A stretch of 64,000 nucleotides of DNA, from NCBI GenBank assembly GCA_037783545.1, contig JBBELK010000376.1, positions 620,001-684,000 of the forward strand, written 5' to 3'. The translations under genes and the position numbers were made by a program. The stretch comes from Henricia sp. BOLD:AAB3569. Lineage: Eukaryota > Echinodermata > Asteroidea > Spinulosida > Echinasteridae. Positions 1 to 63,643 of the stretch are shown piece by piece; the first letter of the stretch is position 1; each line of letters begins with the position of its first letter. The notes under the pieces were generated by a model that was not told where the DNA came from, ran no database searches, and was given only the letters and a program-made list of their open reading frames with translations.

Positions 1-91
1 ATACTTCGCATCGCTACAACTGGTTCTGTTGAACAGTTCAATTGAGCAGGGTTCGAATCCCGCAGCTGTCGTCCACTAGCGCAGTCCAGCA
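1..91 (+). repeat. Partial tRNA-like module B (window edge)
   Basis: The right 91 bp of module B of the unit that starts left of the window. It contains the perfect box B (GGTTCGAATCC, 50-60) and ends in CCAGCA at 86-91. The box A half lies outside the window. Confidence 0.7.
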
Positions 92-840
92 TTTTTTTTG
101 AATCTTTATTTCCATGACACGTACACGGTCAGAAGTCCGCAAGGTTTGCAAATTTACAAACGAAATTAAATTCTTCAAAACGTCAAAAGATACACCACTT
201 GCACAGTGCGCCCTCTATACTCTTTAAGCACAGCCCAGAGGTCGACATGTTTGAAAATTATCCCTGCACTGCGGTGGCCAAATAGAGCACTTTCCTGCCC
301 TCATTTCGGCCACATTTCAAGGAGTTGCAAGCCCACCGACCAGGTTGTGTGTCAGCATGCAGCCGTTTCTTTACCTCCTATTAGATTTGGGGTTCCTAAA
401 GCGATTTATCGGGAATTTATTAAACCCGGAGGTCGGAGGTACCCGGAGGTAGATTGTTTTTTCGCCCGAGGTTGATGTAAAATTTATGTTAGTGCTAGAA
501 GAGATCTGCAAACAAGGGAAACGATACTGTTAATTACAAAGTTGCACGATTTTACACATTAACATTTGATGGCAACATAATGACATCAATTATGGCATGG
601 TAAATATTCATTCATAGATTCACACCTTTTTGTCGGTGCCTTGCGTGTACTTTTGCTCTATTGCGTCGCGGTCAGTGAACCATGGTTTGAGGCCAACGCT
701 GCACCACTGTCTGGAGTTTACCGCCGTTTTTGCATTGTCTAAATGCCGCTCAAGTCACGGTCTAAGCGGTTAAAAGCAGCAGCGCTTGCTCCGTTGGCAT
801 CATTTTCAGTCTTCCAAGCATTCTGTGGATACCTCGTGAT
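92..840 (+). promoter_or_regulatory. nanos 5' flank (representative unit 1)
   Basis: Non-coding stretch between module B and the nanos ORF, repeated in every unit, so it must contain whatever promoter and 5' UTR each copy has. I see no convincing TATA box, initiator or splice signal. A short run with GGAGGT repeated three times lies around 428-452. The last ~140 bp (641-780) has a diverged counterpart in the spacer at 2007-2156. The nanos frame is open from 766, after a stop at 763-765. Copy 24 retains most of this flank (62334-63046), so it belongs to the gene rather than to the array spacer. The small ORFs here are not supported. Confidence 0.4.
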
Positions 841-1431
841 ATGTATTCCTGCAGCTCTCTTTTCCTCCAAGAGGTCACTGAGATGGTCACCGAGCCAAAA
901 CAGTTTGACTGTTTTCGTGATTATTTCGGCCTTGCCAGTCTCATCACCAAGACACGTTCTCCTTATGCCAAGACTAATTCGGTCTCGCAACCATCCAAAG
1001 ATCACGTTTTTCAGCACCAGGTTCAAGACAAGAAACCGAGCCAACAGGTCAGCAGCAGCGACAGCGGACACGTTCCAGGGTTCCGTCCCTTTACCATCCA
1101 TGAGCTGGAACGAGAGGTCCAACCGCCTCGACGGGAAAATCGCTGGGCGGTCAAACCCACCTGGTGCGTCTTCTGTAAGAACAACGGAGAGAGCGAAGCA
1201 GTGTTCACCTCTCACGTACTCAAGAACGGCCAAGACAAGACAGTCTGTCCAAGACTTCGGGCATACATCTGTCCGTTGTGTGGAGCTAGCGGAGATGACG
1301 CCCACACCGTCAAGTACTGTCCGACCAACCTGGGCAGTCTTCAGCCAGAATCGTCCAAAACAGCCACTAACCTTGGGATGTTCATCAGCGACAGGATGCT
1401 TCCCTCGATGGGTTCAAGAATTGCGGTATAA
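841..1431 (+). CDS. nanos: Nanos homologue, copy 1 (intact)
   Basis: Intronless 196-codon ORF for a Nanos-family translational repressor. Family members act with Pumilio on mRNA 3' UTRs in germ cells and embryos and recruit the CCR4-NOT deadenylase. Both Nanos CCHC fingers are present with exact spacing: C109-x2-C112-x12-H125-x10-C136, seven residues, then C144-x2-C147-x7-H155-x4-C160. Residues 22-36 (consensus [15 protein letters not shown]) match the NOT1-interacting motif of vertebrate Nanos. Residues 37-100 are a polar linker, and a 36-residue tail follows the fingers. The ATG at 841 is the first in the open frame. The ATG at 883 (codon 15) has a better context (G at -3 and +4) and still precedes the motif, so a 182-aa product is equally possible. 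Relative to the array consensus this copy has Arg24Cys and Ala70Val. Intronless structure is usual for vertebrate nanos1, so it does not by itself indicate a retrocopy. Confidence 0.93.
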
Positions 1432-1502
1432 CTTGCACCGAGATAACCTACAAACGGCTCTTCTCAGAGCCAACAAAACATCAAAAAAAGAGAAATTTCT
1501 GG

Positions 1503-1680
1503 CATTTGCTAATAATACGTCTTATTAGATTTTTTGTTTTACTTGAAAAAAAAAAATAACCGACGAGTTCCGTCCGTACTATTTATCTCATTTGCCAAAA
1601 ATACATGTACGTCTTATTACATTCATCTTTACATTTTTTTAACTTGGGAAACAAAAAACCAACGAGTTCCGTCCGTACTA
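1503..1680 (+). repeat. Internal tandem duplication in the nanos 3' flank
   Basis: Two imperfect ~80-90 bp copies, about 1503-1581 and 1590-1680. Each runs from ATTTGC(C/T)AATAATA-like sequence through CGTCTTATTA and an A-rich stretch to ACGAGTTCCGTCCGTACTA. The same pair recurs downstream of every array copy. Outlying copy 24 has only one such block (about 63680-63770), so the duplication probably arose in the array lineage. It probably lies in the 3' UTR; I find no canonical AATAAA signal nearby. Confidence 0.8.
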
Positions 1681-1727
1681 GTGACTGTGCTCTTTAATAG
1701 AAGGGGGCCTTTTTCCGATTACCTTTC

Positions 1728-1842
1728 GTGCTGGCTCAGCTAAGTGGATGCTTCGAATCACTACAGACGGTGATGGTAACTGCATAAATAAGTTACCGGG
1801 GTTCGAATCCCGCAGCTTTTCTCCACTGGCGCAATCCAGCAC
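1728..1842 (+). repeat. tRNA-like module A (class II tRNA-like, SINE-like)
   Basis: 115-bp element whose ends pair as a 7-bp acceptor-like stem (GTGCTGG 1728-1734 with CCAGCAC 1836-1842). A box A-like TGGCTCAGC begins at 1732 and a perfect Pol III box B (GGTTCGAATCC) is at 1800-1810. Between them are an anticodon-like hairpin (ATCAC 1757-1761 with GTGAT 1770-1774, 8-nt loop) and a long variable-arm-like hairpin (GGTAACT 1775-1781 with AGTTACC 1791-1797), as in Ser/Leu-type tRNAs. About 25 extra bases after the T arm and the 8-nt loop argue against a working tRNA. Other copies start at 4028, 6327, 8614, 10912, 13211, 15513, 17737, 19992, 22249, 24547, 26802, 29101, 31357, 34056, 36312, 38612, 40868, 43168, 45466, 48342 and 50635. 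Several (such as 19992, 22249, 26802) have a G change in the 3' stem strand. Confidence 0.7.
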
Positions 1843-2265
1843 TTTGAGGGTAACAAAAATCGGTGCAATTTCTCAAGCAAATGAAAACTTTTGTTGCCTC
1901 TCCAGTCCAGGGCAGCGGTAATTGTTAGCATTCTGGGATGACCCACAGCATGTAGGGATGAATAGATAAATGGGTACAGTGCTGGACTTGGACCACAAGA
2001 CGCGATACTAATCCCGGCACTGCGTGCGTACTTTGTCACTTCAATGCGTACCGGCTGGTGTTCGGTAACGCAGCATCAACGCCTGAGAACGTCTGAAGTT
2101 ACCGCGGCTTCGTCTTTGTATTGCCTAAATGCCGCCCTCGTTCACGGACAAAGCAGACAGCCGGGAATAGGAATTGACGCACCGAGAAAAGCAAGGCCAG
2201 CTTCGCACTTGTTACTAGTTCTAGTACCACTGCATTCATAGGAAACTTTCCCTCAAGGAACATTC
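1843..2265 (+). other. Decayed half-unit: nanos flanks without a coding region
   Basis: The ~423 bp between modules A and B. It holds no gene but resembles the gene-bearing half. About 2007-2156 aligns by eye with the nanos 5' flank at 641-780: both share a TGCGTG..GTACTTT..G block, then GTCTG(A/G)AGTT, TTG(C/T)ATTG(C/T)CTAAATGCCGC and TCACGG. About 2218-2272 aligns with the nanos 3' tail at 1675-1734 (CTAGT..CT and TTCGTGCTGG). The beginning (TGCAATTT..AAATGAAAACTTT) resembles the start of the 5' flank after module B. I infer a former second nanos copy whose CDS was deleted. The same segment occurs in every unit. Confidence 0.65.
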
Positions 2266-2376
2266 GTGCTGGCTCAGCCGAGTGGATACTTCGCATCGCT
2301 ACAACTGGTTCTGTTGAACAGTTCAATTGAGCAGGGTTCGAATCCCGCAGCTGTCGTCCACTAGCGCAGTCCAGCA
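2266..2376 (+). repeat. tRNA-like module B (paralogue of module A)
   Basis: 111-bp element related to module A, with TGCTGG/CCAGCA end pairing, box A-like TGGCTCAGCCGAGTGG, and a perfect box B GGTTCGAATCC at 2335-2345. Its variable-arm equivalent pairs AACTG with CAGTT. Other copies end at 4675, 6974, 9261, 11560, 13859, 16161, 18384, 20640, 22896, 25194, 27449, 29749, 32404, 34703, 36959, 39260, 41515, 43815, 46114, 48982 and 51275, each about 110 bp long. The last two have CCAGAA instead of CCAGCA, weakening the stem. Confidence 0.68.
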
Positions 2377-3141
2377 TTTTTTTTGAATCTTTATTTCCAT
2401 GACACGTACACGGTCAGAAGTCCGCAAGGTTTGCAAATTTCCAATGAAAATTTACAACAAACGAAATTAAATTCTTCAAAACGTCAAAAGATACACCACT
2501 TGCACAGTGCGCCCTCTATACTCTTTAAGCACAGCCCAGAGGTCGACATGTTTGAAAATTATCCCTGCACTGCGGTGGCCAAATAGAGCACTTTCCTGCC
2601 CTCATTTCGGCCACATTTCAAGGAGTTGCAAGCCCACCGACCAGGTTGTGTGTCAGCATGCAGCCGTTTCTTTACCTCCTATTAGATTTGGGGTTCCTAA
2701 AGCGATTTATCGGGAATTTATTAAACCCGGAGGTCGGAGGTACCCGGAGGTAGATTGTTTTTTTGCCCGAGGTTGATGTAAAATTTATGTTAGTGCTAGA
2801 AGAGATCTGCAAACAAGGGAAACGATACTGTTAATTACAAAGTTGCACGATTTTACACATTAACATTTGATGGCAACATAATGACATCAATTATGGCATG
2901 GTAAATATTCATTCATAGATTCACACCTTTTTGTCGGTGCCTTGCGTGTACTTTTGCTCTATTGCGTCGCGGTCAGTGAACCATGGTTTGAGGCCAACGC
3001 TGCACCACTGTCTGGAGTTTACAGCCGTTTTTGCATTGTCTAAATGCCGCTCAAGTCACGGTCTAAGCGGTTAAAAGCAGCAGCGCTTGCTCCGTTGGCA
3101 TCATTTTCAGTCTGCCAAGCATTCTGTGGATACCTCGTGAT

Positions 3142-3732
3142 ATGTATTCCTGCAGCTCTCTTTTCCTCCAAGAGGTCACTGAGATGGTCACCGAGCCAAA
3201 ACAGTTTGACTGTTTTCGTGATTAATTCGGCCTTGCCAGTCTCATCACCAAGACACGTTCTCCTTATGCCAAGACTAATTCGGTCTCGCAACCATCCAAA
3301 GATCACGTTTTTCAGCACCAGGTTCAAGACAAGAAACCGAGCCAACAGGTCAGCAGCAGCGACAGCGGACACGTTCCCGGGTTCCGTCCCTTTACCATCC
3401 ATGAGCTGGAACGAGAGGTCCAACCGCCTCGACGGGAAAATCGCTGGGCGGTCAAACCCACCTGGTGCGTCTTCTGTAAGAACAACGGAGAGAGCGAAGC
3501 AGTGTTCACCTCTCACGTACTCAAGAACGGCCAAGACAAGACAGTCTGTCCAAGACTTCGGGCATACATCTGTCCATTGTGTGGAGCTAGCGGAGATGAC
3601 GCCCACACCGTCAAGTACTGTCCGACCAACCTGGGCAGTCTTCAGCCAGAATCGTCCAAAACAGCCACTAACCTTGGGATGTTCATCAGCGACAGGATGC
3701 TTCCCTCGATGGGTTCAAGAATTGCGGTATAA
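3142..3732 (+). pseudogene. nanos: nanos copy 2, nonsense in the NOT1 motif
   Basis: Same frame and length as copy 1, but codon 28 (3223-3225) is TAA instead of TAT (Tyr), stopping the protein in the middle of the NOT1-interacting motif. Both zinc fingers downstream are intact in sequence. No in-frame ATG lies between the stop and the fingers, so a short zinc-finger product would need a non-ATG start. It shares Arg24Cys and Ala70Val with copy 1 and is essentially the same allele as copy 3. Confidence 0.9.
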
Positions 3733-5439
3733 CTTGCACCGAGATAACCTACAAACGGCTCTTCTCAGAGCCAACAAAACATCAAAAAAAGAGAAATTTC
3801 TGGCATTTGCTAATAATATGTCTTATTAGATTTTTTGTTTTACTTGAAAAAAAAATAACCGACGAGTTCCGTCCGTACTATTTATCTCATTTGCCAAAAA
3901 TACATGTACGTCTTATTACATTCATCTTTACATTTTTTTAACTTGGGAAACAAAAAACCAACGAGTTCCGTCCGTACTAGTGACTGTGCTCTTCAATAGA
4001 AGGGGGCCTTTTTTCCGATTACCTTTCGTGCTGGCTCAGCTAAGTGGATGCTTCGAATCACTACAGACGGTGATGGTAACTGCATAAATAAGTTACCGGG
4101 GTTCGAATCCCGCAGCTTTTCTCCACTTGCGCAATCCAGCACTTTGAGGGAAAAAAAATCGATGCAATTTCTCAAGCAAATGAAAACTTTTGTTGCCTCT
4201 CCAGTCCAGGGCAGCGGTAATTGTTAGCATTCTGGGATGACCCACAGCATGTAGGGATGAATAGATAAATGGGTACAGTGCTGGACTTGGACCACAAGAC
4301 GCGATACTAATCCCGGCACTGCGTGCGTACTTTGTCACTTCAATGCGTACCGGCTGGTGTTCGATAACGCAGCATCAACGCCTGAGAACGTCTGAAGTTA
4401 CCGCGGCTTCGTCTTTGTATTGCCTAAATGCCGCCCTCGTTCACGGACAAAGCAGACAGCCGGGAATAGGAATTGACGCACCGAGAAAAGCAAGGCCAGC
4501 TTCGCACTTGTTACTAGTTCTAGTACCACTGCATTCATAGGAAACTTTCCCTCAAGGAACATTCGTGCTGGCTCAGCCGAGTGGATACTTCGCATCGCTA
4601 CAACTGGTTCTGTTGAACAGTTCAATTGAGCAGGGTTCGAATCCCGCAGCTGTCGTCCACTAGCGCAGTCCAGCATTTTTTTGAATCTTTATTTCCATGA
4701 CACGTACACGGTCAGAAGTCCGCAAGGTTTGCAAATTTCCAATGAAAATTTACAACAAACGAAATTAAATTCTTCAAAACGTCAAAAGATACACCACTTG
4801 CACAGTGCGCCCTCTATACTCTTTAAGCACAGCCCAGAGGTCGACATGTTTGAAAATTATCCCTGCACTGCGGTGGCCAAATAGAGCACTTTCCTGCCCT
4901 CATTTCGGCCACATTTCAAGGAGTTGCAAGCCCACCGACCAGGTTGTGTGTCAGCATGCAGCCGTTTCTTTACCTCCTATTAGATTTGGGGTTCCTAAAG
5001 CGATTTATCGGGAATTTATTAAACCCGGAGGTCGGAGGTACCCGGAGGTAGATTGTTTTTTTGCCCGAGGTTGATGTAAAATTTATGTTAGTGCTAGAAG
5101 AGATCTGCAAACAAGGGAAACGATACTGTTAATTACAAAGTTGCACGATTTTACACATTAACATTTGATGGCAACATAATGACATCAATTATGGCATGGT
5201 AAATATTCATTCATAGATTCACACCTTTTTGTCGGTGCCTTGCGTGTACTTTTGCTCTATTGCGTCGCGGTCAGTGAACCATGGTTTGAGGCCAACGCTG
5301 CACCACTGTCTGGAGTTTACAGCCGTTTTTGCATTGTCTAAATGCCGCTCAAGTCACGGTCTAAGCGGTTAAAAGCAGCAGCGCTTGCTCCGTTGGCATC
5401 ATTTTCAGTCTGCCAAGCATTCTGTGGATACCTCGTGAT

Positions 5440-6030
5440 ATGTATTCCTGCAGCTCTCTTTTCCTCCAAGAGGTCACTGAGATGGTCACCGAGCCAAAAC
5501 AGTTTGACTGTTTTCGTGATTAATTCGGCCTTGCCAGTCTCATCACCAAGACACGTTCTCCTTATGCCAAGACTAATTCGGTCTCGCAACCATCCAAAGA
5601 TCACGTTTTTCAGCACCAGGTTCAAGACAAGAAACCGAGCCAACAGGTCAGCAGCAGCGACAGCGGACACGTTCCCGGGTTCCGTCCCTTTACCATCCAT
5701 GAGCTGGAACGAGAGGTCCAACCGCCTCGACGGGAAAATCGCTGGGCGGTCAAACCCACCTGGTGCGTCTTCTGTAAGAACAACGGAGAGAGCGAAGCAG
5801 TGTTCACCTCTCACGTACTCAAGAACGGCCAAGACAAGACAGTCTGTCCAAGACTTCGGGCATACATCTGTCCATTGTGTGGAGCTAGCGGAGATGACGC
5901 CCACACCGTCAAGTACTGTCCGACCAACCTGGGCAGTCTTCAGCCAGAATCGTCCAAAACAGCCACTAACCTTGGGATGTTCATCAGCGACAGGATGCTT
6001 CCCTCGATGGGTTCAAGAATTGCGGTATAA
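5440..6030 (+). pseudogene. nanos: nanos copy 3, same nonsense as copy 2
   Basis: Carries the identical TAT to TAA change at codon 28 (5521-5523) and the same Arg24Cys and Ala70Val substitutions. Flanking sequence is also nearly indistinguishable from unit 2, including the AGCCGTTTTTGC variant upstream. Copies 2 and 3 are therefore a recent duplication of one already broken unit. Confidence 0.9.
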
Positions 6031-7738
6031 CTTGCACCGAGATAACCTACAAACGGCTCTTCTCAGAGCCAACAAAACATCAAAAAAAGAGAAATTTCTG
6101 GCATTTGCTAATAATATGTCTTATTAGATTTTTTGTTTTACTTGAAAAAAAAATAACCGACGAGTTCCGTCCGTACTATTTATCTCATTTGCCAAAAATA
6201 CATGTACGTCTTATTACATTCATCTTTACATTTTTTTTAACTTGGGAAACAAAAAACCAACGAGTTCCGTCCGTACTAGTGACTGTGCTCTTCAATAGAA
6301 GGGGGCCTTTTTTCCGATTACCTTTCGTGCTGGCTCAGCTAAGTGGATGCTTCGAATCACTACAGACGGTGATGGTAACTGCATAAATAAGTTACCGGGG
6401 TTCGAATCCCGCAGCTTTTCTCCACTTGCGCAATCCAGCACTTTGAGGGAAAAAAAATCGATGCAATTTCTCAAGCAAATGAAAACTTTTGTTGCCTCTC
6501 CAGTCCAGGGCAGCGGTAATTGTTAGCATTCTGGGATGACCCACAGCATGTAGGGATGAATAGATAAATGGGTACAGTGCTGGACTTGGACCACAAGACG
6601 CGATACTAATCCCGGCACTGCGTGCGTACTTTGTCACTTCAATGCGTACCGGCTGGTGTTCGATAACGCAGCATCAACGCCTGAGAACGTCTGAAGTTAC
6701 CGCGGCTTCGTCTTTGTATTGCCTAAATGCCGCCCTCGTTCACGGACAAAGCAGACAGCCGGGAATAGGAATTGACGCACCGAGAAAAGCAAGGCCAGCT
6801 TCGCACTTGTTACTAGTTCTAGTACCACTGCATTCATAGGAAACTTTCCCTCAAGGAACATTCGTGCTGGCTCAGCCGAGTGGATACTTCGCATCGCTAC
6901 AACTGGTTCTGTTGAACAGTTCAATTGAGCAGGGTTCGAATCCCGCAGCTGTCGTCCACTAGCGCAGTCCAGCATTTTTTTGAATCTTTATTTCCATGAC
7001 ACGTACACGGTCAGAAGTCCGCAAGGTTTGCAAATTTCCAATGAAAATTTACAACAAACGAAATTAAATTCTTCAAAACGTCAAAAGATACACCACTTGC
7101 ACAGTGCGCCCTCTATACTCTTTAAGCACAGCCCAGAGGTCGACATGTTTGAAAATTATCCCTGCACTGCGGTGGCCAAATAGAGCACTTTCCTGCCCTC
7201 ATTTCGGCCACATTTCAAGGAGTTGCAAGCCCACCGACCAGGTTGTGTGTCAGCATGCAGCCGTTTCTTTACCTCCTATTAGATTTGGGGTTCCTAAAGC
7301 GATTTATCGGGAATTTATTAAACCCGGAGGTCGGAGGTACCCGGAGGTAGATTGTTTTTTTGCCCGAGGTTGATGTAAAATTTATGTTAGTGCTAGAAGA
7401 GATCTGCAAACAAGGGAAACGATACTGTTAATTACAAAGTTGCACGATTTTACACATTAACATTTGATGGCAACATAATGACATCAATTATAGCATGGTA
7501 AATATTCATTCATAGATTCACACCTTTTTGTCGGTGCCTTGCGTGTACTTTTGCTCTATTGCGTCGCGGTCAGTGAACCATGGTTTGAGGCCAACGCTGC
7601 ACCACTGTCTGGAGTTTACCGCCGTTTTTGCATTGTCTAAATGCCGCTCAAGTCACGGTCTAAGCGGTTAAAAGCAGCAGCGCTTGCTCCGTTGGCATCA
7701 TTTTCAGTCTGCCAAGCATTCTGTGGATACCTCGTGAT

Positions 7739-8329
7739 ATGTATTCCTGCAGCTCTCTTTTCCTCCAAGAGGTCACTGAGATGGTCACCGAGCCAAAACA
7801 GTTTGACCGTTTTCGTGATTATTTCGGCCTTGCCAGTCTCATCACCAAGACACGTTCTCCTTATGCCAAGACTAATTCGGTCTCGCAACCATCCAAAGAT
7901 CACGTTTTTCAGCACCAGGTTCAAGACAAGAAACCGAGCCAACAGGCCAGCAGCAGCGACAGCGGACACGTTCCCGGGTTCCGTTTCTTTACCATCCATG
8001 AGCTGGAACGAGAGGTCCAACCGCCTCGATGGGAAAATCGCTGGGCGGTCAAACCCACCTGGTGCGTCTTCTGTAAGAACAACGGAGAGAGCGAAGCAGT
8101 GTTCACCTCTCACGTACTCAAGAACGGCCAAGACAAGACAGTCTGTCCAAGACTTCGGGCATACATCTGTCCGTTGTGTGGAGCTAGCGGAGATGACGCC
8201 CACACCGTCAAGTACTGTCCGACCAACCTGGGCAGTCTTCAGCCAGAATCGTCCAAAACAGCCACTAACCTTGGGATGTTCATCAGCGACAGGATGCTTC
8301 CCTCGATGGGTTCAAGAATTGCGGTATAA
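7739..8329 (+). CDS. nanos: Nanos homologue, copy 4 (intact, F83/W98 type)
   Basis: Open 196-codon nanos frame with the NOT1 motif and all eight zinc ligands. It differs from consensus by Pro83Phe and Arg98Trp in the linker. These two changes also mark every 43-bp-deleted pseudogene (copies 8, 9, 10, 12, 14, 16, 18). Copy 4 therefore represents the pre-deletion ancestor of that lineage, or a copy repaired by gene conversion. The downstream 3' flank has lost about 10 bp of the second internal repeat (near 8510). Confidence 0.92.
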
Positions 8330-10026
8330 CTTGCACCGAGATAACCTACAAACGGCTCTTCTCAGAGCTAACAAAACATCAAAAAAAGAGAAATTTCTGG
8401 CATTTGCTAATAATACGTCTTATTAGATTTGTTGTTTTACTTGAAAAAAAAAATAACCGACGAGTTCCGTCCGTACTATTTATCTCATTTGCCAAAAATA
8501 CATGTACGTCATCTTTACATTTTTTTAACTTGGGAAACAAAAAACCAACGAGTTCCGTCCGTACGAGTGACTGTGCTCTTCAATAGAAGGGGGCCTTTTT
8601 CCGATTACCTTTCGTGCTGGCTCAGCTAAGTGGATGCTTCGAATCACTACAGACGGTGATGGTAACTGCATAAATAAGTTACCGGGGTTCGAATCCCGCA
8701 GCTTTTCTCCACTGGCGCAATCCAGCACTTTTAGGGCAAAAAAATCGGTGCAATTTCTCAAGCAAATGAAAACTTTTGTTGCCTCTCCAGTCCAGGGCAG
8801 CTGTAATTGTTAGCATTCTGGGATGACCCACAGCATGTAGGGATGAATAGATAAATGGGTACAGTGCTGGACTTGGACCACAAGACGCGATACTAATCCC
8901 GGCACTGCGTGCGTACTTTGTCACTTCAATGCGTACCGGCTGGTGTTCGGTAACGCAGCATCAACGCCTGAGAACGTCTGAAGTTACCGCGGCTTCGTCT
9001 TTGTATTGCCTAAATGCCGCCCTCGTTCACGGACAAAGCAGACAGCCGGGAATAGGAATTGACGCACCGAGAAAAGCAAGGCCAGCTTCGCACTTGTTAC
9101 TAGTTCTAGTACCACTGCATTCATAGGAAACTTTCCCTCAAGGAACATTCGTGCTGGCTCAGCCGAGTGGATACTTCGCATCGCTACAACTGGTTCTGTT
9201 GAACAGTTCAAGTGAGCAGGGTTCGAATCCCGCATCTGTCGTCCACTAGCGCAGTCCAGCATTTTTTTGAATCTTTATTTCCATGACACGTACACGGTCA
9301 GAAGTCTGCAAGGTTTGCAAATTTCCAATGAAAATTTACAACAAACGAAATTAAATTCTTCAAAACGTCAAAAGATACACCACTTGCACAGTGCGCCCTC
9401 TATACTCTTTAAGCACAGCCCAGAGGTCGACATGTTTGAAAATTATCCCTGCACTGCGGTGGCCAAATAGAGCACTTTCCTGCCCTCATTTCGGCCACAT
9501 TTCAAGGAGTTGCAAGCCCACCGACCAGGTTGTGTGTCAGCATGCAGCCGTTTCTTTACCTCCTATTAGATTTCGGGTTCCTAAAGCGATTTATCGGGAA
9601 TTTATTAAACCCGGAGGTCGGAGGTACCCGGAGGTAGATTGTTTTTTTTGCCCGAGGTTGATGTAAAATTTATGTTAGTGCTAGAAGAGATCTGCAAACA
9701 AGGGAAACGATACTGTCAATTACAAAGTTGCACGATTTTACACATTAACATTTGATGGCAACATAATGACATCAATTATGGCATGGTAAATATTCATTCA
9801 TAGATTCACACCTTTTTGTCGGTGCCTTGCGTGTACTTTTGCTCTATTGCGTCGCGGTCAGTGAACCATGGTTTGCCGCCAATGCTGCACCACTGTCTGA
9901 AGTTTACCGCCGTTTTTGCATTGTCTAAATGCCGCTCAAGTCACGGTCTAAGCGGTTAAAAGCAGCAGCGCTTGCTCCGTTGGCATCATTTTCAGTCTGC
10001 CAAGCATTCTGTGGATACCTCGTGAT

Positions 10027-10617
10027 ATGTATTCCTGCAGCTCTCTTTTCCTCCAAGAGGTCACTGAGATGGTCACCGAGCCAAAACAGTTTGACCGTTT
10101 TCGTGATTATTTCGGCCTTGCCAGTCTCATCACCAAGACACGTTCCCCTTATGCCAAGACTAACTCGGTCTCGCAACCATCCAAAGATCACGTCTTTCAG
10201 CACCAGGTTCAAGACAAGAAACCGAGCCAACAGGCCAGCAGCAGCGACAGCGGACCCGTTACCGGGTTCCGTCCCTTTACCATCCATGAGCTGGAACGAG
10301 AGGTCCAACCGCCTCGACGGGAAAATCGCTGGGTGGTCAAACCCACCTGGTGCGTCTTCTGTAAGAACAACGGAGAGAGCGAAGCAGTGTTCACCTCTCA
10401 CGTACTCAAGAACGGCCAAGACAAGACAGTCTGTCCAAGACTTCGGGCATACATCTGTCCGTTGTGTGGAGCTAGCGGAGATGACGCCCACACCGTCAAG
10501 TACTGTCCGACCAACCTGGGCAGTCTTCAGCCAGAATCGTCCAAAACAGCCACTAACCTTGGGATGTTCATCAGCGACAGGATGCTTCCCTCGATGGGTT
10601 CAAGAATTGCGGTATAA
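10027..10617 (+). CDS. nanos: Nanos homologue, copy 5 (intact, PVTG/V103 type)
   Basis: Open 196-codon nanos frame with complete NOT1 motif and both CCHC fingers. Linker variants are His77Pro, Pro79Thr and Ala103Val. The same three occur in copies 7 and 11 and in outlying copy 24, so this type is probably the ancestral state. It also has synonymous changes shared with that class (CCC for Pro41, AAC for Asn46). Confidence 0.92.
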
Positions 10618-12325
10618 CTTGCACCGAGATAACCTACAAACGGCTCTTCTCAGAGCCAACAAAACATCAAAAAAAGAGAAATTTCCGGCATTTGCTAATA
10701 ATACGTCTTATTAGATTGTTTGTTTTACTTGAAAAAAAAATAACCGACGAGTTCCGTCCGTACTATTTATCTCATTTGCCAATAATACATGTACGTCTTA
10801 TTACATTCATCTTTACATTTTTTTAACTTGAAAAAATAAAAAACAACGAGTTCCGGCCGTACTAGTGACTGTGCTCTTCAATAGAAGGGGGCCTTTTTCC
10901 GATTACCTTTCGTGCTGGCTCAGCTAAGTGGATGCTTCGAATCACTACAGACGGTGATGGTAACTGCATAAATAAGTTACCGGGGTTCGAATCCCGCAGC
11001 TTTTCTCCACTGGCGCAATCCAGCACTTTTAGGGCAAAAAAAATCGGTGCAATTTCTCAAGCAAATGAAAACTTTGTTTGCCTCTCCAGTCCAGGGCAGC
11101 GGTAATTGTTAGCATTCTGGGATGACCCACAGCATGTAGGGATGAATAGATAAATGGGTACAGTGCTGGACTTGGACCACAAGACGCGATACTAATCCCG
11201 GCACTGCGTGCGTACTTTGTCACTTCAATGCGTACCGGCTGGTGTTCGGTAACGCAGCATCAACGCCTGAGAACGTCTGAAGTTACCGCGGCTTCGTCTT
11301 TGTATTGCCTAAATGCCGCCCTCGTTCACGGACAAAGCAGACAGCCGGGAATAGGAATTGACGCACCGAGAAAAGCAAGGCCAGCTTCGCACTTGTTACT
11401 AGTTCTAGTACCACTGCATTCATAGGAAACTTTCCCTCAAGGAACATTCGTGCTGGCTCAGCCGAGTGGATACTTCGCATCGCTACAACTGGTTCTGTTG
11501 AACAGTTCAAGTGAGCAGGGTTCGAATCCCGCATCTGTCGTCCACTAGCGCAGTCCAGCATTTTTTTGAATCTTTATTTCCATGACACGTACACGGTCAG
11601 AAGTCTGCAAGGTTTGCAAATTTCCAATGAAAATTTACAACAAACGAAATTAAATTCTTCAAAACGTCAAAAGATACACCACTTGCACAGTGCGCCCTCT
11701 ATACTCTTTAAGCACAGCCCAGAGGTCGACATGTTTGAAAATTATCCCTGCACTGCGGTGGCCAAATAGAGCACTTTCCTGCCCTCATTTCGGCCACATT
11801 TCAAGGAGTTGCAAGCCCACCGACCAGGTTGTGTGTCAGCATGCAGCCGTTTCTTTACCTCCTATTAGATTTCGGGTTCCTAAAGCGATTTATCGGGAAT
11901 TTATTAAACCCGGAGGTCGGAGGTACCCGGAGGTAGATTGTTTTTTTTGCCCGAGGTTGATGTAAAATTTATGTTAGTGCTAGAAGAGATCTGCAAACAA
12001 GGGAAACGATACTGTCAATTACAAAGTTGCACGATTTTACACATTAACATTTGATGGCAACATAATGACATCAATTATGGCATGGTAAATATTCATTCAT
12101 AGATTCACACCTTTTTGTCGGTGCCTTGCGTGTACTTTTGCTCTATTGCGTCGCGGTCAGTGAACCATGGTTTGCCGCCAATGCTGCACCACTGTCTGAA
12201 GTTTACCGCCGTTTTTGCATTGTCTAAATGCCGCTCAAGTCACGGTCTAAGCGGTTAAAAGCAGCAGCGCTTGCTCCGTTGGCATCATTTTCAGTCTGCC
12301 AAGCATTCTGTGGATACCTCGTGAT

Positions 12326-12916
12326 ATGTATTCCTGCAGCTCTCTTTTCCTCCAAGAGGTCACTGAGATGGTCACCGAGCCAAAACAGTTTGACCGTTTT
12401 CGTGATTATTTCGGCCTTGCCAGTCTCATCACCAAGACACGTTCTCCTTATGCCAAGACTAATTCGGTCTCGCAACCATCCAAAGATCACGTTTTTCAGC
12501 ACCAGGTTCAAGACAAGAAACCGAGCCAACAGGCCAGCAGCAGCGACAGCGGACACGTTCCCGGGTTCCGTCCCTTTACCATCCATGAGCTGGAACGAGA
12601 GGTCCAACCGCCTCGACGGGAAAATCGCTGGGCGGTCAAACCCACCTGGTGCGTCTTCTGTAAGAACAACGGAGAGAGCGAAGCAGTGCTCACCTCTCAC
12701 GTACTCAAGAACGGCCAAGACAAGACAGTCTGTCCAAGACTTCGGGCATACATCTGTCCGTTGTGTGGAGCTAGCGGAGATGACGCCCACACCGTCAAGT
12801 ACTGTCCGACCAACCTGGGCAGTCTTCAGCCAGAATCGTCCAAAACAGCCACTAACCTTGGGATGTTCATCAGCGACAGGATGCTTCCCTCGATGGGTTC
12901 AAGAATTGCGGTATAA
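12326..12916 (+). CDS. nanos: Nanos homologue, copy 6 (intact)
   Basis: Open 196-codon nanos frame matching the array consensus except Phe122Leu, which lies within zinc finger 1 between C112 and H125. All zinc ligands and the NOT1 motif are unchanged. Confidence 0.92.
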   Translation: MYSCSSLFLQEVTEMVTEPKQFDRFRDYFGLASLITKTRSPYAKTNSVSQPSKDHVFQHQVQDKKPSQQASSSDSGHVPGFRPFTIHELEREVQPPRRENRWAVKPTWCVFCKNNGESEAVLTSHVLKNGQDKTVCPRLRAYICPLCGASGDDAHTVKYCPTNLGSLQPESSKTATNLGMFISDRMLPSMGSRIAV

Positions 12917-14623
12917 CTTGCACCGAGATAACCTACAAACGGCTCTTCTCAGAGCCAACAAAACATCAAAAAAAGAGAAATTTCTGGCATTTGCTAATAA
13001 TACGTCTTATTAGATTGTTTGTTTTACTTGAAAAAAAAATAACCGACGAGTTCCGTCCGTACTATTTATCTCATTTGCCAATAATACATGTACGTCTTAT
13101 TACATTCATCTTTACATTTTTTTAACTTGGGAAAAAAAAAACCAACGAGTTCCGGCCGTACTAGTGACTGTGCTCTTCAATAGAAGGGGGCCTTTTTCCG
13201 ATTACCTTTCGTGCTGGCTCAGCTAAGTGGATGCTTCGAATCACTACAGACGGTGATGGTAACTGCATAAATAAGTTACCGGGGTTCGAATCCCGCAGCT
13301 TTTCTCCACTGGCGCAATCCAGCACTTTTAGGGCAAAAAAAATCGGTGCAATTTCTCAAGCAAATGAAAACTTTGTTTGCCTCTCCAGTCCAGGGCAGCG
13401 GTAATTGTTAGCATTCTGGGATGACCCACAGCATGTAGGGATGAATAGATAAATGGGTACAGTGCTGGACTTGGACCACAAGACGCGATACTAATCCCGG
13501 CACTGCGTGCGTACTTTGTCACTTTAATGCGTACCGGCTGGTGTTCGGTAACGCAGCATCAACGCCTGAGAACGTCTGAAGTTACCGCGGCTTCGTCTTT
13601 GTATTGCCTAAATGCCGCCCTCGTTCACGGACAAAGCAGACAGCCGGGAATAGGAATTGACGCACCGAGAAAAGCAAGGCCAGCTTCGCACTTGTTACTA
13701 GTTCTAGTACCACTGCATTCATAGGAAACTTTCCCTCAAGGAACATTCGTGCTGGCTCAGCCGAGTGGATACTTCGCATCGCTACAACTGGTTCTGTTGA
13801 ACAGTTCAAGTGAGCAGGGTTCGAATCCCGCATCTGTCGTCCACTAGCGCAGTCCAGCATTTTTTTGAATCTTTATTTTCATGACACGTACACGGTCAGA
13901 AGTCTGCAAGGTTTGCAAATTTCCAATGAAAATTTACAACAAACGAAATTAAATTCTTCAAAACGTCAAAAGATACACCACTTGCACAGTGCGCCCTCTA
14001 TACTCTTTAAGCACAGCCCAGAGGTCGACATGTTTGAAAATTATCCCTGCACTGCGGTGGCCAAATAGAGCACTTTCCTGCCCTCATTTCGGCCACATTT
14101 CAAGGAGTTGCAAGCCCACCGACCAGGTTGTGTGTCAGCATGCAGCCGTTTCTTTACCTCCTATTAGATTTGGGGTTCCTAAAGCGATTTATCGGGAATT
14201 TATTAAACCCGGAGGTCGGAGGTACCCGGAGGTAGATTGTTTTTTTGCCCGAGATTGATGTAAAATTTATGTTAGTGCTAGAAGAGATCTGCAAACAAGG
14301 GAAACGATAATGTTAATTACAAAGTTGCACGATTTTACACATTAACATTTGATGGCAACATAATGACATCAATTATGGCATGGTAAATATTCATTCATAG
14401 ATTCACACCTTTTTGTCGGTGCCTTGCGTGTACTTTTGCTCTATTGCGTCGCGGTCAGTGAACCATGGTTTGCCGCCAATGCTGCACCACTGTCTGAAGT
14501 TTACCGCCGTTTTTGCATTGTCTAAATGCCGCTCAAGTCACGGTCTAAGCGGTTAAAAGCAGCAGCGCTTGCTCCGTTGGCATCATTTTCAGTCTGCCAA
14601 GCATTCTGTGGATACCTCGTGAT

Positions 14624-48047: not shown

Positions 48048-49749
48048 CTTGCACCGAGATAACCTACAAACGGCTCTTCTCAGAGCCAACAAAACATCAA
48101 AAAAAGAGAAATTTCTGGCATTTGCTAATAATACGTCTTATTAGATTTTTTGTTTTACTTGAAAAAAAAAATAACCGACGAGTTCCGTCCGTACTATTTA
48201 TCTCATTTGCCAATAATACATGTACGTCTTATTACATTCATCTTTACATTTATTTAACTTGGGAAAAAAAAACCAACGAGTTCCGTCCGTACTAGTGACT
48301 GTGCTCTTCAATAGAAGGGGGCCTTTTTCCGATTACCTTTCGTGCTGGCTCAGCTAAGTGGATGCTTCGAATCACTACAGACGGTGATGGTAACTGCATA
48401 AATAAGTTACCGGGGTTCGAATCCCGCAGCTTTTCTCCACTGGCGCAATCCAGCACTTTTAGGGCAAAAAAATCGGTGCAATTTCTCAAGCAAATGAAAA
48501 CTTTTTTTGCCTCTCCAGTCCAGGGCAGCGGTAATTGTTAGCATTCTGGGATGACCCACAGCATGTAGGGATGAATAGATAAATGGGTACAGTGCTGGAC
48601 TTGGACCACAAGACGCGATACTAATCCCGGCACTGCGTGCGTACATTGTCACTTCAATGCGTACCAGCCGGTAACGCAGCATCAACGCCTGAGAACGTCT
48701 GAAGTTACCGCGGCTTCGTCTTTGTATTGCCTAAATGCCGCCCTCGTTCACGGACAAAGCAGACAGCCGGGAATAGGAATTGACGCACCGAGAAAAGCAA
48801 GGCCAGCTTCGCACTTGTTACTAGTTCTAGTACCACTGCATTCATAGGAAACTTTCCCTCAAGGAACATTCGTGCTGGCTCAGCCGAGTGGATACTTCGC
48901 ATCGCTACAACTGGTTCTGTTGAACAGTTCAAGTGAGCAGGGTTCGAATCCCGCAGCTGTCGTCCACTAGCGCAGTCCAGAATTTTTTTGAATCTTTATT
49001 TCCATGACACGTACACGGTCAGAAGACCGCAAGGTTTGCAAATTTCCAATGAAAATTTACAACAAACGAAATTAAATTCTTCAAAACGTCAAAAGATACA
49101 CCACTTGCACAGTGCGCCCTCTATACTCTTTAAGCACAGCCCAGAGGTCGACATGTTCGAAAATTATCCCTCCACTGCGGTGGCCAAATAGAGCACTTTC
49201 CTGCCCTCATTTCGGCCACATTTCAAGGTGTTGCAAGCCCACCAACCAGGTTGTGTGTCAGCATGCAGCCGTTTCTTTACCTCCTATTAGATTTGGGGTT
49301 CCTAAAGCGATTTATCGGGAATTTATTAAACCCGGAGGTCGGAGGTACCCGGAGGTAGATTTTTGTTTTTTTGCCCGAGGTTGATCTAAAATTTATGTTA
49401 GTGCTAGAAGAGATCTGCAAACAAGGGAAACGATACTGTTAATTACAAAGTTGCACGATTTTACACATTAACATTTGATGGCAACATAATGACATCAATT
49501 ATGGCATGGTAAATATTCATTCATAGATTCACACCTTTTTGTCGGCGCCTTGCGTGTACTTTTGCTCTATTGCGTCGCGGTCAGTGAACCATGGTTTGCC
49601 GCCAACGCTGCACCACTGTCTGAAGTTTACCGCCGTTTTTGCATTGTCTAAATGCCGCTCAAGTCACGGTCTAAGCGGTTAAAAGCAGCAGCGCTTGCTC
49701 CGTTGGCATCATTTTCAGTCTGCTAAGCATTCTGTGGATACCTCGTGAT

Positions 49750-50340
49750 ATGTATTCCTGCAGCTCTCTTTTCCTCCAAGAGGTCACTGAGATGGTCACC
49801 GAGCCAAAACAGTTTGACCGTTTTCGTGATTATTTCGGCCTTGCCAGTCTCATCACCAAGACACGTTCCCCTTATGCCAAGACTAACTCGGTCTCGCAAC
49901 CATCCAAAGATCACGTCTTTCAGCACCAGGTTCAAGACAAGAAACCGAGCCAACAGGCCAGCAGCAGCGACAGCGGACACGTTTGCGGGTTCCGTCCCTT
50001 TACCATCCATGAGCTGGAACGAGAGGTCCAACCGCCTCGACGGGAAAATCGCTGGGCGGTCAAACCCACCTGGTGCGTCTTCTGTAAGAACAACGGAGAG
50101 AGCGAAGCAGTGTTCACCTCTCACGTACTCAAGAACGGCCAAGACAAGACAGTCTGTCCAAGACTTCGGGCATACATCTGTCCGTTGTGTGGAGCTAGCG
50201 GAGATGACGCCCACACCGTCAAGTACTGTCCGACCAACCTGGGCAGTCTTCAGCCAGAATCGTCCAAAACAGCCACTAACCTTGGGATGTTCATCAGCGA
50301 CAGGATGCTTCCCTCGATGGGTTCAAGAATTGCGGTATAA
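49750..50340 (+). CDS. nanos: Nanos homologue, copy 22 (intact)
   Basis: Open 196-codon nanos frame with Pro79Cys. Upstream, a C to T change gives TGCTAAGC at 49721, which breaks the overlapping alternative frame but not nanos; this supports nanos as the real frame. Units 21 and 22 share an ~8-bp deletion in the spacer (ACCAGCCGGTAACG at 48664 and 50957) and the CCAGAA change in module B, so they are a recent pair. Confidence 0.92.
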
Positions 50341-51944
50341 CTTGCACCGAGATAACCTACAAACGGCTCTTCTCAGAGCCAACAAAACATCAAAAAAAGA
50401 GAAATTTCTGGCATTTGCTAATAATACGTATTATTAGATTTTTTGTTTTACTTGAAAAAAAAAATAACCGACGAGTTCCGTCCGTACTATTTATCTCATT
50501 TGCCAATAATACATGTACGTCTTATTACATTCATCTTTACATTTATTTAACTTGGGAAAAAAAAACCAACGAGTTCCGTCCGTACTAGTGACTGTGCTCT
50601 TCAATAGAAGGGGGCCTTTTTCCGATTACCTTTCGTGCTGGCTCAGCTAAGTGGATGCTTCGAATCACTACAGACGGTGATGGTAACTGCATAAATAAGT
50701 TACCGGGGTTCGAATCCCGCAGCTTTTCTCCACTGGCGCAATCCAGCACTTTTAGGGCAAAAAAATCGGTGCAATTTCTCAAGCAAATGAAAACTTTTTT
50801 TGCCTCTCCAGTCCAGGGCAGCTGTAATTGTTAGCATTCTGGGATGACCCACAGCATGTAGGGATGAATAGATAAATGGGTACAGTGCTGGACTTGGACC
50901 ACAAGACGCGATACTAATCCCGGCACTGCGTGCGTACATTGTCACTTCAATGCGTACCAGCCGGTAACGCAGCATCAACGCCTGAGAACGTCTGAAGTTA
51001 CCGCGGCTTCGTCTTTGTATTGCCTAAATGCCGCCCTCGTTCACGGACAAAGCAGACAGCCGGGAATAGGAATTGACGCACCGACAAAAGCAAGGCCAGC
51101 TTCGCACTTGTTACTAGTTCTAGTACCACTGCATTCATAGGAAACTTTCCCTCAAGGAACATTCGTGCTGGCTCAGCCGAGTGGATACTTCGCATCGCTA
51201 CAACTGGTTCTGTTGAACAGTTCAAGTGAGCAGGGTTCGAATCCCGCAGCTGTCGTCCACTAGCGCAGTCCAGAATTTTTTTGAATCTTTATTTCCATGA
51301 CACGTACACGGTCAGAAGACCGCAAGGTTTGCAAATTTCCAATGAAAATTTACAACAAACGAAATTAAATTCTTCAAAACGTCAAAAGATACACCACTTG
51401 CACAGTGCGCCCTCTATACTCTTTAAGCACAGCCCAGAGGTCGACATGTTCGAAAATTATCCCTCCACTGCGGTGGCCAAATAGAGCACTTTCCTGCCCT
51501 CATTTCGGCCACATTTCAAGGTGTTGCAAGCCCACCAACCAGGTTGTGTGTCAGCATGCAGCCGTTTCTTTACCTCCTATTAGATTTGGGGTTCCTAAAG
51601 CGATTTATCGGGAATTTATTAAACCCGGAGGTCGGAGGTACCCGGAGGTAGATTTTTGTTTTTTTGCCCGAGGTTGATCTAAAATTTATGTTAGTGCTAG
51701 AAGAGATCTGCAAACAAGGGAAACGATACTGTTAATTACAAAGTTGCACGATTTTACACATTAACATTTGATGGCAACATAATGACATCAATTATGGCAT
51801 GGTAAATATTCATTCATAGATTCACACCTTTTTGTCGGCGCCTTGCGTGTACTTTTGCTCTATTGCGTCGCGGTCAGTGAACCATGGTTTGCCGCCAACG
51901 CTGCACCACTGTCTGAAGTTTACCGCCGTTTTTGCATTCTCTAA

Positions 51945-57112: not shown

Positions 57113-57157
57113 GATGATTTACAAGCTTGGAATGAGTGGCTGGCAGACCGTCAGAAG

Positions 57158-61217: not shown

Positions 61218-61219
61218 TA

Positions 61220-61311
61220 TAAGTAAAACTGGTGGGGTGGCGATCAACGGAATTGTATAGCCTTGATTAAACACACTGATAACAAATTTGTTTGTTCCTA
61301 TCTTTTCCCAA
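61220..61311 (-). pseudogene. DIRS-like pre-RT segment
   Basis: The minus-strand frame reads FWEKIGTNKFVISVFNQGYT followed by a proline-rich end, matching the segment just before the RT palm in DIRS-like elements. It is cut at 61219 by the fold-back MITE and continues at 60416 (SNNKCALDN.. then FVTEAIEDL). The stretch 61312-61712 upstream is probably decayed DIRS linker; I recognise nothing definite in it. Confidence 0.65.
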
Positions 61312-61712
61312 AACTGAATATCTCGTAAATTCTTCCTTTGACTATTGGCTAAGAGTGTCCTTGTTTGTAATCAAAGAACCTTTGCCGCAAAATGTCCGGC
61401 CTGGGGCTTTAACGGTAGCTACTGAACTCTTCAGCTGCACAATCTGGTTAAAAAATGGGAAGAATTTTATAAAAGGACACGAAACTATACCATCTGCAAG
61501 ATAACAATTATGCACCTAGACGTGAATGGGCATAAATCCACATAGAACCATTATATATGAAAGTAATGGTTCCAATCGATTAATGAACACATTATGCAAT
61601 CATTCAACAGCATTATCATTGTCTTTCTGGATCAAGGCCATAATAATTTAATTACATAATCCGAGAACACAAAACAAACCGACCCGACAATGAGCTTGGT
61701 GCAACGTCACCA

Positions 61713-62126
61713 TCACTGCTTTAGTGGTGTTGGTCTGACCGCAGAAGTTGCGAGGGTCACGGTAACAGGGCATGATCGTCTCCAGAGACTGGCATTCCCG
61801 TAGCTGAAGCAAACGTCGGTTGAGGCTGGCTGCCTTTGGCCAAAGCGTCGTCTACCGAATTGCATATCTACATTGGCCGAGGAGAGAATGTTTTGGGCCT
61901 TTTCTACCTTCAGGGAGATACCGGAAATTAACTCCCACTGAATTGTATTACTTTTGAACTTAAATGTAGGTGTTGATGGCTTGATTTTAGCAATTTTTTC
62001 CTGCGAGGTGGATGTTTGGTGCTCAATTTCCTTCTTGAAGTCAGTAAGCTTGTCCTCGAAGTAGGACCTGAACGAGTCCAATAATTCTAAAAATGGAGAA
62101 TTAGTCCCGGAATTGCCCGAGCACAC
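61713..62126 (-). pseudogene. DIRS-like gag-type ORF remnant
   Basis: 137-codon minus-strand frame. The middle (FKFKSNTIQWEL, then a helical stretch) and the downstream GRRRFGQRQP followed by a cysteine-containing CFSYGNASLWRRSC resemble the first ORF of DIRS/Ngaro-like elements, where a FKFK..N..Q motif precedes an Arg/Gly/Gln-rich region and a zinc knuckle. The fit is by pattern only, and the knuckle is incomplete. Confidence 0.55.
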
Positions 62127-62333
62127 AGCGTATTTTATTCAGACATTCCGCTGTATGGTAACACGGCGTTGAGAAAGAAAATTTAGTACATCCTGTCTGT
62201 GGCGTGCGAAAAACATAAGTGACCAATGCGCTCAAGCATGCATGTTTATACTGCTTTGCTACAATTGTTATTCAATGCACTACTGCACCTGTGCCCCAAG
62301 TATGCGACACGCTCCTGCTTCTTTAAAAAATAC
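62127..62333. other. Unassigned spacer between the DIRS-like element and copy 24
   Basis: About 200 bp without a recognisable gene. It may contain the end of the DIRS-like element. Homology to the nanos unit starts abruptly near 62334 (TTTGCAAATTTCCAATGAAAATTT). Confidence 0.5.
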
Positions 62334-63046
62334 ATTTGCAAATTTCCAATGAAAATTTATAACAAGCGAAATTAAATTCTTCAAAACGTCAAAAGATACA
62401 CCACTTACACAGTGCGCCCTCTATACTCTTTAAGCACAGCCCAGAGGTCGACATGTTTGAAAATTATCCCTCCACTGCGGTGGCCAAATAGAGCACTTTC
62501 CTGCCCTCATTTTAGCTACAACGAGTTGCAAGCCCACCGACCAGGCTGTGTGTCAGCATGCAGCCGTTTCTTCACCTCCTATTAGATTTGGGGTTCCTAA
62601 AGCGATTTATCCAGAAATTTATCAAACCCGGAGGCCGGAGGTACCCGGAGGTAGATTGTTTTTTTGCCCGAGGTTGATGTAAAGTTTACGTCAGTGCTAG
62701 AGGAGATCTGCAAACAAGGGAAACGATACTGTTAATTACAAAGTTGCACGATTTTACACATTAACATTAATGGCAACATAATGACATCAATTATGGCATG
62801 ATAAATATTCAGTCATAGATTCACACCTTTTTGTCGGTGCCTTGCGTGTACTTTTACTCTATTGCGTCGCGGTCAGTGATCTATGGTTTGCCGCCAACGC
62901 TGCACCACTGTCTGAAGTTAACCGCCGTACCGTTTTTGCATTGTCTTAATGCCGCCCAAGTCACGGTCTAAGCGGTTAAAAGCAGCAGCGCTTGCTTAGT
63001 TGGCATCATTTTCACTCTGCCAAGCATTCTGTAGATAACTCGTGAT
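62334..63046 (+). promoter_or_regulatory. 5' flank of divergent nanos copy 24
   Basis: Homologous to the array 5' flank (compare 2438-3141) but with many substitutions and short indels, so it is an older branch. Blocks that stay nearly unchanged include CGTCAAAAGATACACCACTT, the TTAAGCACAGCCCAGAGGTC region and TCACACCTTTTTGTCGGTGC. These are candidates for conserved promoter or 5' UTR sequence. There is no module B upstream. Confidence 0.45.
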
Positions 63047-63643
63047 ATGTACATGTATTCCTGCAGCTCTCTTTTCCTCCAAGAGGTCACTGAGATGGTC
63101 ACCGAGCCAAAACAGTTTGACCGTTTTCGTGATTATTTCGGCCTTGCCAGTCTCATCACCAAGACACGTTCTCCTTATACCAAGACCAACTCGGAATCGC
63201 AACCATCCCAAGATCACGTCTTTCAGCACCAGGCTCAAGACAAGAAACCAAGCCAACAGGCCAGCAGCAGCGACAGCGGACCCGTTACCGGGTTCCGTCC
63301 TTTTACCATCGATGAGCTGGAACGAGAGGTCCAACCGCCTCGACGGGAAAATCGCTGGGTGGTCAAACCCACCTGGTGCGTCTTCTGTAAGAACAACGGA
63401 GAGAGCGAAGCAGTGTTCACCTCTCACGCGCTCAAGAACGGCCATGACAAGACAGTCTGTCCAAGACTTCGGGCATACATCTGTCCGCTGTGTGGAGCTA
63501 GCGGAGATGACGCCCACACCGTTAAGTACTGTCCGACCAACCTGGGAAGTCTTCAGCCAGAACCGTCCAAGACAGCCACCAACCTAGGGGTGTTCATCAG
63601 CGACAGGATGCTTTCCTCGATTGGTTCAACAATTTCGGTGTAA
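63047..63643 (+). CDS. nanos: Nanos homologue, copy 24 (divergent, intact)
   Basis: Open 198-codon nanos frame: two extra N-terminal residues from an ATGTAC insertion, otherwise alignable throughout. The NOT1 motif is unchanged and all eight zinc ligands are present. In consensus numbering it has Ala43Thr, Val48Glu, Lys53Gln, Val61Ala, His77Pro, Pro79Thr, His87Asp, Ala103Val, Val126Ala, Gln131His, Ser171Pro, Met180Val, Pro188Ser, Met190Ile, Arg193Thr and Ala195Ser. Most changes fall in the linker and tail, few in the fingers, as expected for a protein under constraint. The overlapping alternative frame is broken here by TAG at 62997-62999. This may be closest to the founder gene. Confidence 0.93.

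Follow-up and report, generated by a model that had tools for sequence, protein, structure and literature searches.

A 64-kb window of the genome of the sea star Henricia sp. BOLD:AAB3569 (the whole stretch analyzed, C376:620001-684000, where C376 is contig JBBELK010000376.1 of a 740.7-Mb assembly in 2,104 contigs) is the right end of a very large tandem array of nanos. We consider it likely that nanos in this array has the structure, and probably the mode of expression, of a replication-dependent histone gene, and that the array is a bulk-supply locus. Animals usually have one to a few nanos genes, and histone-type 3′ ends are, to our knowledge, considered almost unique to histone genes. Here, most copies of nanos are followed by the stem and downstream element found on histone genes of the same genome, and the repeat unit also holds two vault RNA genes. 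The mitochondrial sequence agrees with an echinoderm, probably a sea star: under the echinoderm code (table 9, AAA as Asn; compared with tables 5 and 13) cox1 on C955 translates, by eye, into the residues expected of an animal, and the tRNAs ahead of cox1 (Leu-, Gly-, Tyr-, Leu-, Asn-, Gln+) are consistent with the asteroid inversion. Germline-restricted DNA of a lamprey or hagfish, considered at first, was set aside on these grounds.

Organization and Extent of the nanos Arrays

The initial annotation of the window had counted 24 nanos copies, 14 of them open, in at least 22 head-to-tail units running past the left edge, and this count was exact. BLAST of one unit against the window located 22 head-to-tail units on the + strand, with nanos starts from 841 to 49750 and a period of 2,255-2,301 bp (two insertion-lengthened units of 2,656 and 2,876 bp are the exceptions), and two extra copies to the right of this run at 53841 and 63053. 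The left window edge does cut through the array, which continues leftward to C376:444 kb. The nanos reading frame in the 2.3-kb unit is uninterrupted and encodes 196 amino acids (aa) in the 14 open copies. In seven of the 24, another frame takes the place of the zinc finger owing to a 43-bp deletion (214 aa); two others terminate after codon 27, and the last is broken at 75 aa. The copy at 63053 has an additional in-frame ATG at 63047, which gives 198 aa. The protein of the reference copy (copy 6) matches Pfam zf-nanos (PF05741, E 3.3e-23) as well as solved nanos chains, and the two CCHC motifs of the Nanos zinc finger are present. Its N-terminal stretch is similar to what we take to be the motif through which other Nanos proteins bind CNOT1.

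1..51944, +, right end of tandem array B (C376:444-672 kb), ~2.3-kb unit of nanos, stem-loop, V1 and V2
841..1431, +, nanos copy 1, open, 196 aa
3142..3732, +, nanos copy 2, ends after codon 27
5440..6030, +, nanos copy 3, ends after codon 27
7739..8329, +, nanos copy 4, open, 196 aa
10027..10617, +, nanos copy 5, open, 196 aa
12326..12916, +, nanos copy 6 (reference copy), open, 196 aa, zf-nanos E 3.3e-23
14624..15214, +, nanos copy 7, open, 196 aa
16894..17538, +, nanos copy 8, 43-bp deletion, 214 aa, without Pfam match
19149..19793, +, nanos copy 9, deleted type, 214 aa
21406..22050, +, nanos copy 10, deleted type, 214 aa
23662..24252, +, nanos copy 11, open, 196 aa
25959..26603, +, nanos copy 12, deleted type, 214 aa
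28215..28805, +, nanos copy 13, open, 196 aa
30514..31158, +, nanos copy 14, deleted type, 214 aa
33170..33760, +, nanos copy 15, open, 196 aa
35469..36113, +, nanos copy 16, deleted type, 214 aa
37725..38315, +, nanos copy 17, open, 196 aa
40025..40669, +, nanos copy 18, deleted type, 214 aa
42281..42871, +, nanos copy 19, open, 196 aa
44581..45171, +, nanos copy 20, open, 196 aa
47457..48047, +, nanos copy 21, open, 196 aa
49750..50340, +, nanos copy 22, open, 196 aa
53841..54421, +, nanos copy 23, broken (75 aa), insertion between array and copy
63053..63643, +, nanos copy 24, diverged edge copy, open, without stem-loop, downstream element kept

Array B, of which the window is the right end, is ~230 kb long (C376:444-672 kb), with stray copies up to 684 kb. 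Reading of C376:430-694 kb yielded 102 nanos pieces, all in one orientation, together with 101 stem-loop places, 100 copies of the vault RNA gene V1 and 99 of V2, and the order nanos, stem-loop, V1, V2 is nearly unbroken across this region. Ninety-nine copies contain a start; 73 of them are full length (72 of 196 aa, one of 197 aa), 10 end after codon 27, 10 are of the deleted 214-aa type and six have other breaks. The zinc-finger-less 214-aa type has thus itself been amplified in array B, and it alternates with intact copies over part of the window.

A second nanos array, array A, lies at C376:210-303 kb on the - strand, inverted relative to array B. In the 20 of its ~93 kb that were read, the ~1.5-kb unit comprises nanos, the stem-loop and a single vault-like gene; of the 13 copies with a start, 11 encode 196 aa. 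One array-A unit is 93.8% identical to an array-B unit over 1,389 aligned columns. The genome search for other nanos loci proposed in the initial annotation extended array B leftward and found the inverted array A and further contigs with nanos. In this zf-nanos search, the best 150 of 226 candidates were scored and split by locus by hand, so the counts are lower bounds: at least 144 matches are on C376 (at least 98 in array B on the + strand, edge copy included; at least 45 in array A on the - strand; one at 384 kb on the - strand) and six are on other contigs. The same search gave no match in 14 prokaryote control genomes. A dispersed nanos gene is found on C201, and C26 holds a 99.94% copy of the C201 locus over 3,159 bp, probably the other haplotype. 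Broken nanos-like pieces in shuffled order, resembling the nanos locus on C9, lie at C346:271.6-272 kb.

Transposon frames lie at the right edge of the array. Transposase frames, which we take to be Harbinger-like, lie between copies 22 and 23 (window 52384-53450), one of them matching DDE_Tnp_4. Between copies 23 and 24 (window 55241-58692) are retroelement-like frames that we assume may be BEL/Pao-like, one of which matches Integrase_H2C2 weakly (E 0.00091, not reaching the curated cut-off).

A Histone-Type 3′ End

The RF00032 model of the histone 3′-untranslated region (UTR) stem-loop matches at gathering score, on the coding (+) strand, after 20 of the 24 nanos copies in the window, with E-values of 5.9e-08 for 11 matches and 4.8e-06 for nine.

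12936..12981, +, reference-unit histone 3′-UTR stem-loop (RF00032), AAAAGAG downstream
1451, 3752, 6050, 8349, 10637, 15234, 17461, 19716, 21973, 24272, +, starts of the other RF00032 matches at gathering score (first ten)
26526, 31081, 33780, 36036, 40592, 42891, 45191, 48067, 50360, +, starts of the other RF00032 matches at gathering score (last nine)

In the reference copy the stem begins 24 nt past the stop codon, and one layout is shared by the nanos genes of array A, array B and C201: stop codon, 24-26 nt, GGCTCT-4 nt-AGAGCC, 13-14 nt and AAAAGAG. Two other genes of this genome, identified by eye from their translations as H4 (on C835) and H1-like (on C9), share this six-base-pair stem and carry AAAAGAG equally far from it; nanos and these histone genes have the purine-rich downstream element in common. 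At 82 of the 101 array-B stem-loop places the sequence is exactly GGCTCTTCTCAGAGCC, and at 14 more it departs from this by a single C-to-T change at the final position that still permits G-U pairing. The C201 gene has retained the stem and downstream element at a synonymous divergence (dS) of ~0.30 from the array and with a changed 3′ flank. The edge copy at 63053 has no stem-loop, and its downstream element is present. The polyadenylation-type hexamers AATAAA and ATTAAA are absent within 300 nt past the stop in 69 of the 72 array-B copies of 196 aa.

Candidate components that could act on such a 3′ end were looked for in this genome. The RNA-binding domain of the stem-loop binding protein (SLBP) is encoded, split over two pieces on C95 and present a second time on C254. 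Sub-threshold U7-like RNAs show, by eye, CUCUUUU, an Sm-like site AATTTCTCAAG and a hairpin, and their CUCUUUU pairs over 7 bp with the AAAAGAG of nanos, H4 and the H1-like gene.

The genome search for stem-loops scored the best 75 of 128,444 candidates, with no C376 place among them, and is not a census; one of the 14 control genomes matched, below the cut-off. The largest histone array in the scored list, on C835, has stem-loops ~4.13 kb apart with the same stem as nanos. Acquisition of the nanos stem-loop from an adjacent histone cluster was considered and set aside, as no C376 histone is among the best 150 of 1,124 candidates. Seven dispersed RF00032 places, each of 46.9 bits, are found on C15, C84, C119, C161, C479, C667 and C711, and these may form a mobile or retrocopied family that carries a histone 3′ end.

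A Conserved Upstream Block

12215..12293, +, upstream block of the reference unit, with TATA-like GGTTAAAA and initiator-like TCATTTTCA, identical in the aligned array-A unit

This 79-bp block is identical between the one array-A and the one array-B unit that were aligned. The pair of GGTTAAAA and TCATTTTCA, at a TATA/initiator-type spacing, also occurs in the C201 gene and the edge copy and precedes 96 of 99 array-B copies when a gap of 18-26 nt is permitted. The position of the pair would place the transcription start ~40 nt before the ATG, and the predicted nanos mRNA would thus be ~680 nt long and histone-like in compactness.

Divergence and Constraint

The consensus coding sequences of array A (11 copies) and array B (72 copies, edge copy included) differ by six synonymous changes in 129.8 sites and nine nonsynonymous changes in 458.2 sites, 15 changes that give a ratio of nonsynonymous to synonymous divergence (dN/dS) of 0.42; for array B against C201 dN/dS is 0.46. 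The zinc-ligand spacing is retained in 72 of the 73 full-length array-B proteins and in nine of 11 array-A proteins. Among the 99 array-B copies there are 52 distinct coding sequences. The 89 units of ordinary length have a mean pairwise divergence of 1.19%. The value falls to 0.88% for neighboring units and rises to 1.27% for units separated by more than 80 kb (3,916 pairs, Spearman 0.16), as expected under unequal exchange or conversion.

Vault RNA, SRP RNA and tRNA Genes

The window contains 44 vault RNA genes at the gathering score of RF00006 (22 V1 and 22 V2), all on the + strand and scoring 48-58 bits.

13211..13329, +, vault RNA V1 of the reference unit (RF00006, 57.7 bits)
13749..13864, +, vault RNA V2 of the reference unit (RF00006, 55.2 bits)

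All 44 matches cover model positions 1-99, and the possibility that they represent a short interspersed element was set aside since they span the whole model. A B-box-like GGTTCGAATCC and a terminal T run were recognized by eye. In the part of array A that was read the vault matches are weak, with nine past gathering score at 35.8-40.1 bits; the left end of this array has two vault RNA genes that score higher (58.6 and 54.9 bits). The best-scoring vault RNA genes listed for the genome are at C275:1148-1151 kb and C1000:234-239 kb, with a spacing of ~1.9-2.35 kb. The 3.1 kb read on C275 contained no nanos, and neither C275 nor C1000 is among the scored zf-nanos matches (best 150 of 226).

Other genes of RNA polymerase III (Pol III) adjoin the arrays. 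Among the signal recognition particle (SRP) RNA matches scored (best 26 of 4,334 candidates), 25 of 26 are on C376, at 311-328, 390, 409 and 684-714 kb. On either side of array B, SRP RNA occurs with tRNA-Leu (three, 430-432 kb) or tRNA-Ser (one, 687 kb), and where the SRP-RNA/tRNA repeats are regular their spacing is ~706 bp. Thus, C376:210-714 kb, as read outside 328-390 kb and most of 390-430 kb, combines Pol III repeats with nanos.

Discussion

The array resembles tandem replication-dependent histone clusters, such as the echinoderm early histone repeats, in its short genes arranged head to tail, its near-identical units and the stem-loop and downstream element that follow the stop codon. 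It differs from them in that it encodes nanos rather than a histone and that its units also hold vault RNA genes. Its product has the two CCHC zinc fingers (PF05741) of metazoan nanos genes, and unlike these the locus combines at least 144 scored matches on one contig with a histone-type 3′ end. The vault RNA genes are full-length RF00006 matches at 48-58 bits, and unlike those on C275 and C1000, where no nanos was found, they are arrayed two per nanos unit. Flanking SRP-RNA/tRNA repeats recall arrayed Pol III genes (5S, 7SL and tRNA repeats), which here, unlike elsewhere, share one 500-kb stretch with a germline gene of RNA polymerase II. Among the open-licence articles listed as matches, no title or abstract opening mentions a nanos array, a nanos histone stem-loop or a combination of nanos and vault RNA.

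How such a locus could have come about and operate can be outlined. A nanos gene with a histone-type 3′ end may have arisen first, of which the dispersed gene on C201 would be a survivor, with amplification beside vault RNA following later. The U7 small nuclear ribonucleoprotein (snRNP) and SLBP machinery would cut the nanos pre-mRNA, giving a short nanos mRNA that lacks a poly(A) tail and would follow SLBP in its stability and translation. The ~100 templates of array B plus those of array A would allow quick bulk synthesis, as with histones, perhaps in oogenesis or the oocyte or in early cleavage, alongside vault RNA, SRP RNA and tRNA. Unit similarity is maintained by concerted evolution, and nanos dosage may be tied to oogenesis or S phase. 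The arrangement of the arrays, the nature and conservation of the signals, the encoded SLBP domain, the sub-threshold U7-like RNAs and the moderate average constraint are observed; from them we infer the 3′ processing, the missing poly(A) tail, the stage of expression and the reason for the amplification. In its fullest form, which we hold tentatively and at somewhat less than even chances, this account has nanos shifted into the histone gene class, with at least ~100 templates, a tail-less stem-loop mRNA, SLBP/U7 control and a ~500-kb supply locus that also makes vault RNA, SRP RNA and tRNA. An excerpt of PMC550661 describes a store of major vault protein in the sea urchin egg sufficient for 10^7 vaults, which would fit a bulk supply of vault RNA. 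The initial annotation had read the locus as a large nanos amplification with a possible increase in dosage, and both fit the present evidence, but it had missed the histone-type 3′ end and both vault RNA genes, and the flanking SRP-RNA/tRNA repeats lie beyond the window that it covered.

Several observations weigh against a histone-like, bulk-supply nanos locus. Coding constraint on nanos is moderate, not strict: the 72 array-B copies carry 35 synonymous and 50 nonsynonymous variants (~0.4 per site), and 26 of 99 array-B copies are not full length, the repeated zinc-finger-less type included. The C201 gene has an AATAAA 345 nt past its stop, and in the 3 kb of the C9 nanos locus no stem-loop reaches gathering score. 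No histone end was recognized in the 201 bp read before the dispersed stem-loop on C15, and the stem-loop signal may not be confined to histones in this genome. On the side of the machinery, the three U7-like RNA matches, at 27.3-28.4 bits, fall short of the cut-off of 34, and six of the 14 prokaryote control genomes match as well at the lax threshold used, none above the cut-off. The energy of the U7 pairing is equalled or bettered by 5.5% of unit windows, and we set aside the idea of a unique pairing site since energy alone gives it no support. At least 49 of 100 V1 copies have just three T in the expected terminator. A maternal role is also called into question by another sea star, Patiria miniata, in which germ cells are specified by induction according to an excerpt of PMC12673967; an excerpt of PMC10396339, citing Fresques et al. 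2014, describes nanos in this species as cell-type specific only by late gastrula and gives no direct support for such a role.

Vault RNA, with SRP RNA and tRNA adjacent, could instead be the amplified product, with nanos as a passenger in the unit. Pol III genes are commonly arrayed. Vault RNA is present in nearly every unit, SRP-RNA/tRNA repeats flank the array, 26 of 99 array-B nanos copies are not full length, and array A has two good vault RNA genes at its left end. However, it is in the part of array A that was read that vault matches are weak and yet 11 of 13 nanos frames are full length. A dN/dS below 0.5 and a nearly invariant nanos 3′ signal also speak against a passenger, as do the best-scoring vault RNA genes on C275 and C1000, which stand without nanos in the 3.1 kb read or among the scored matches. 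Such hitchhiking is in our judgment unlikely, though it deserves to be kept in mind.

Tandem repetition, broken and zinc-finger-less copies and transposon frames at the edge might equally mark a source of antisense or piRNA-like (PIWI-interacting RNA) small RNAs directed at nanos, or a largely silent satellite-like repeat. This we regard as improbable given the single orientation of all 102 array-B nanos pieces, the mostly open frames and the conservation of the upstream motif pair and 3′ signal; a pure small-RNA source is disfavored by dN/dS below 1, together with the open frames and intact 3′ signals. An inflated repeat number or stacked haplotypes could in principle come from an assembly that is not fully curated, as the haplotig-like C26/C201 duplicates (99.94%, 3,159 bp) indicate. 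C955 points the same way, as mitochondrial cox1 occurs on it three times at a spacing of 16,221 bp, probably an assembly artefact in the form of a concatemer. An artefact of this kind is very improbable for the nanos arrays, whose units differ (mean 1.19%, n = 89), with neighbors more alike and only four of 3,916 unit pairs identical, and which are both internal to one 1.31-Mb contig with different unit lengths and opposite orientations. We give the least credence to a sex-linked or germline-restricted ampliconic locus. An amplified germline gene and an inverted array pair on one contig would suit it, but the histone-type signal and the Pol III neighbors indicate bulk supply instead.

If nanos is indeed made in the manner of a histone, a developmental regulator would have changed its mode of mRNA metabolism by gaining and keeping a histone-type 3′ end together with histone-like amplification. 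Nanos silences its targets by recruiting the CCR4-NOT deadenylase. Since it acts through deadenylation, a tail-less nanos mRNA would be immune to Nanos's own mechanism. Poly(A)-selected RNA-Seq would miss nanos transcripts of this type and could distort accounts of when nanos is first expressed. The pairing of nanos with vault RNA also offers a handle on the role of vaults. Histone-type ends and adjoining vault RNA genes suggest that in this sea star a germline regulator may be made in bulk, in the fashion of histones.

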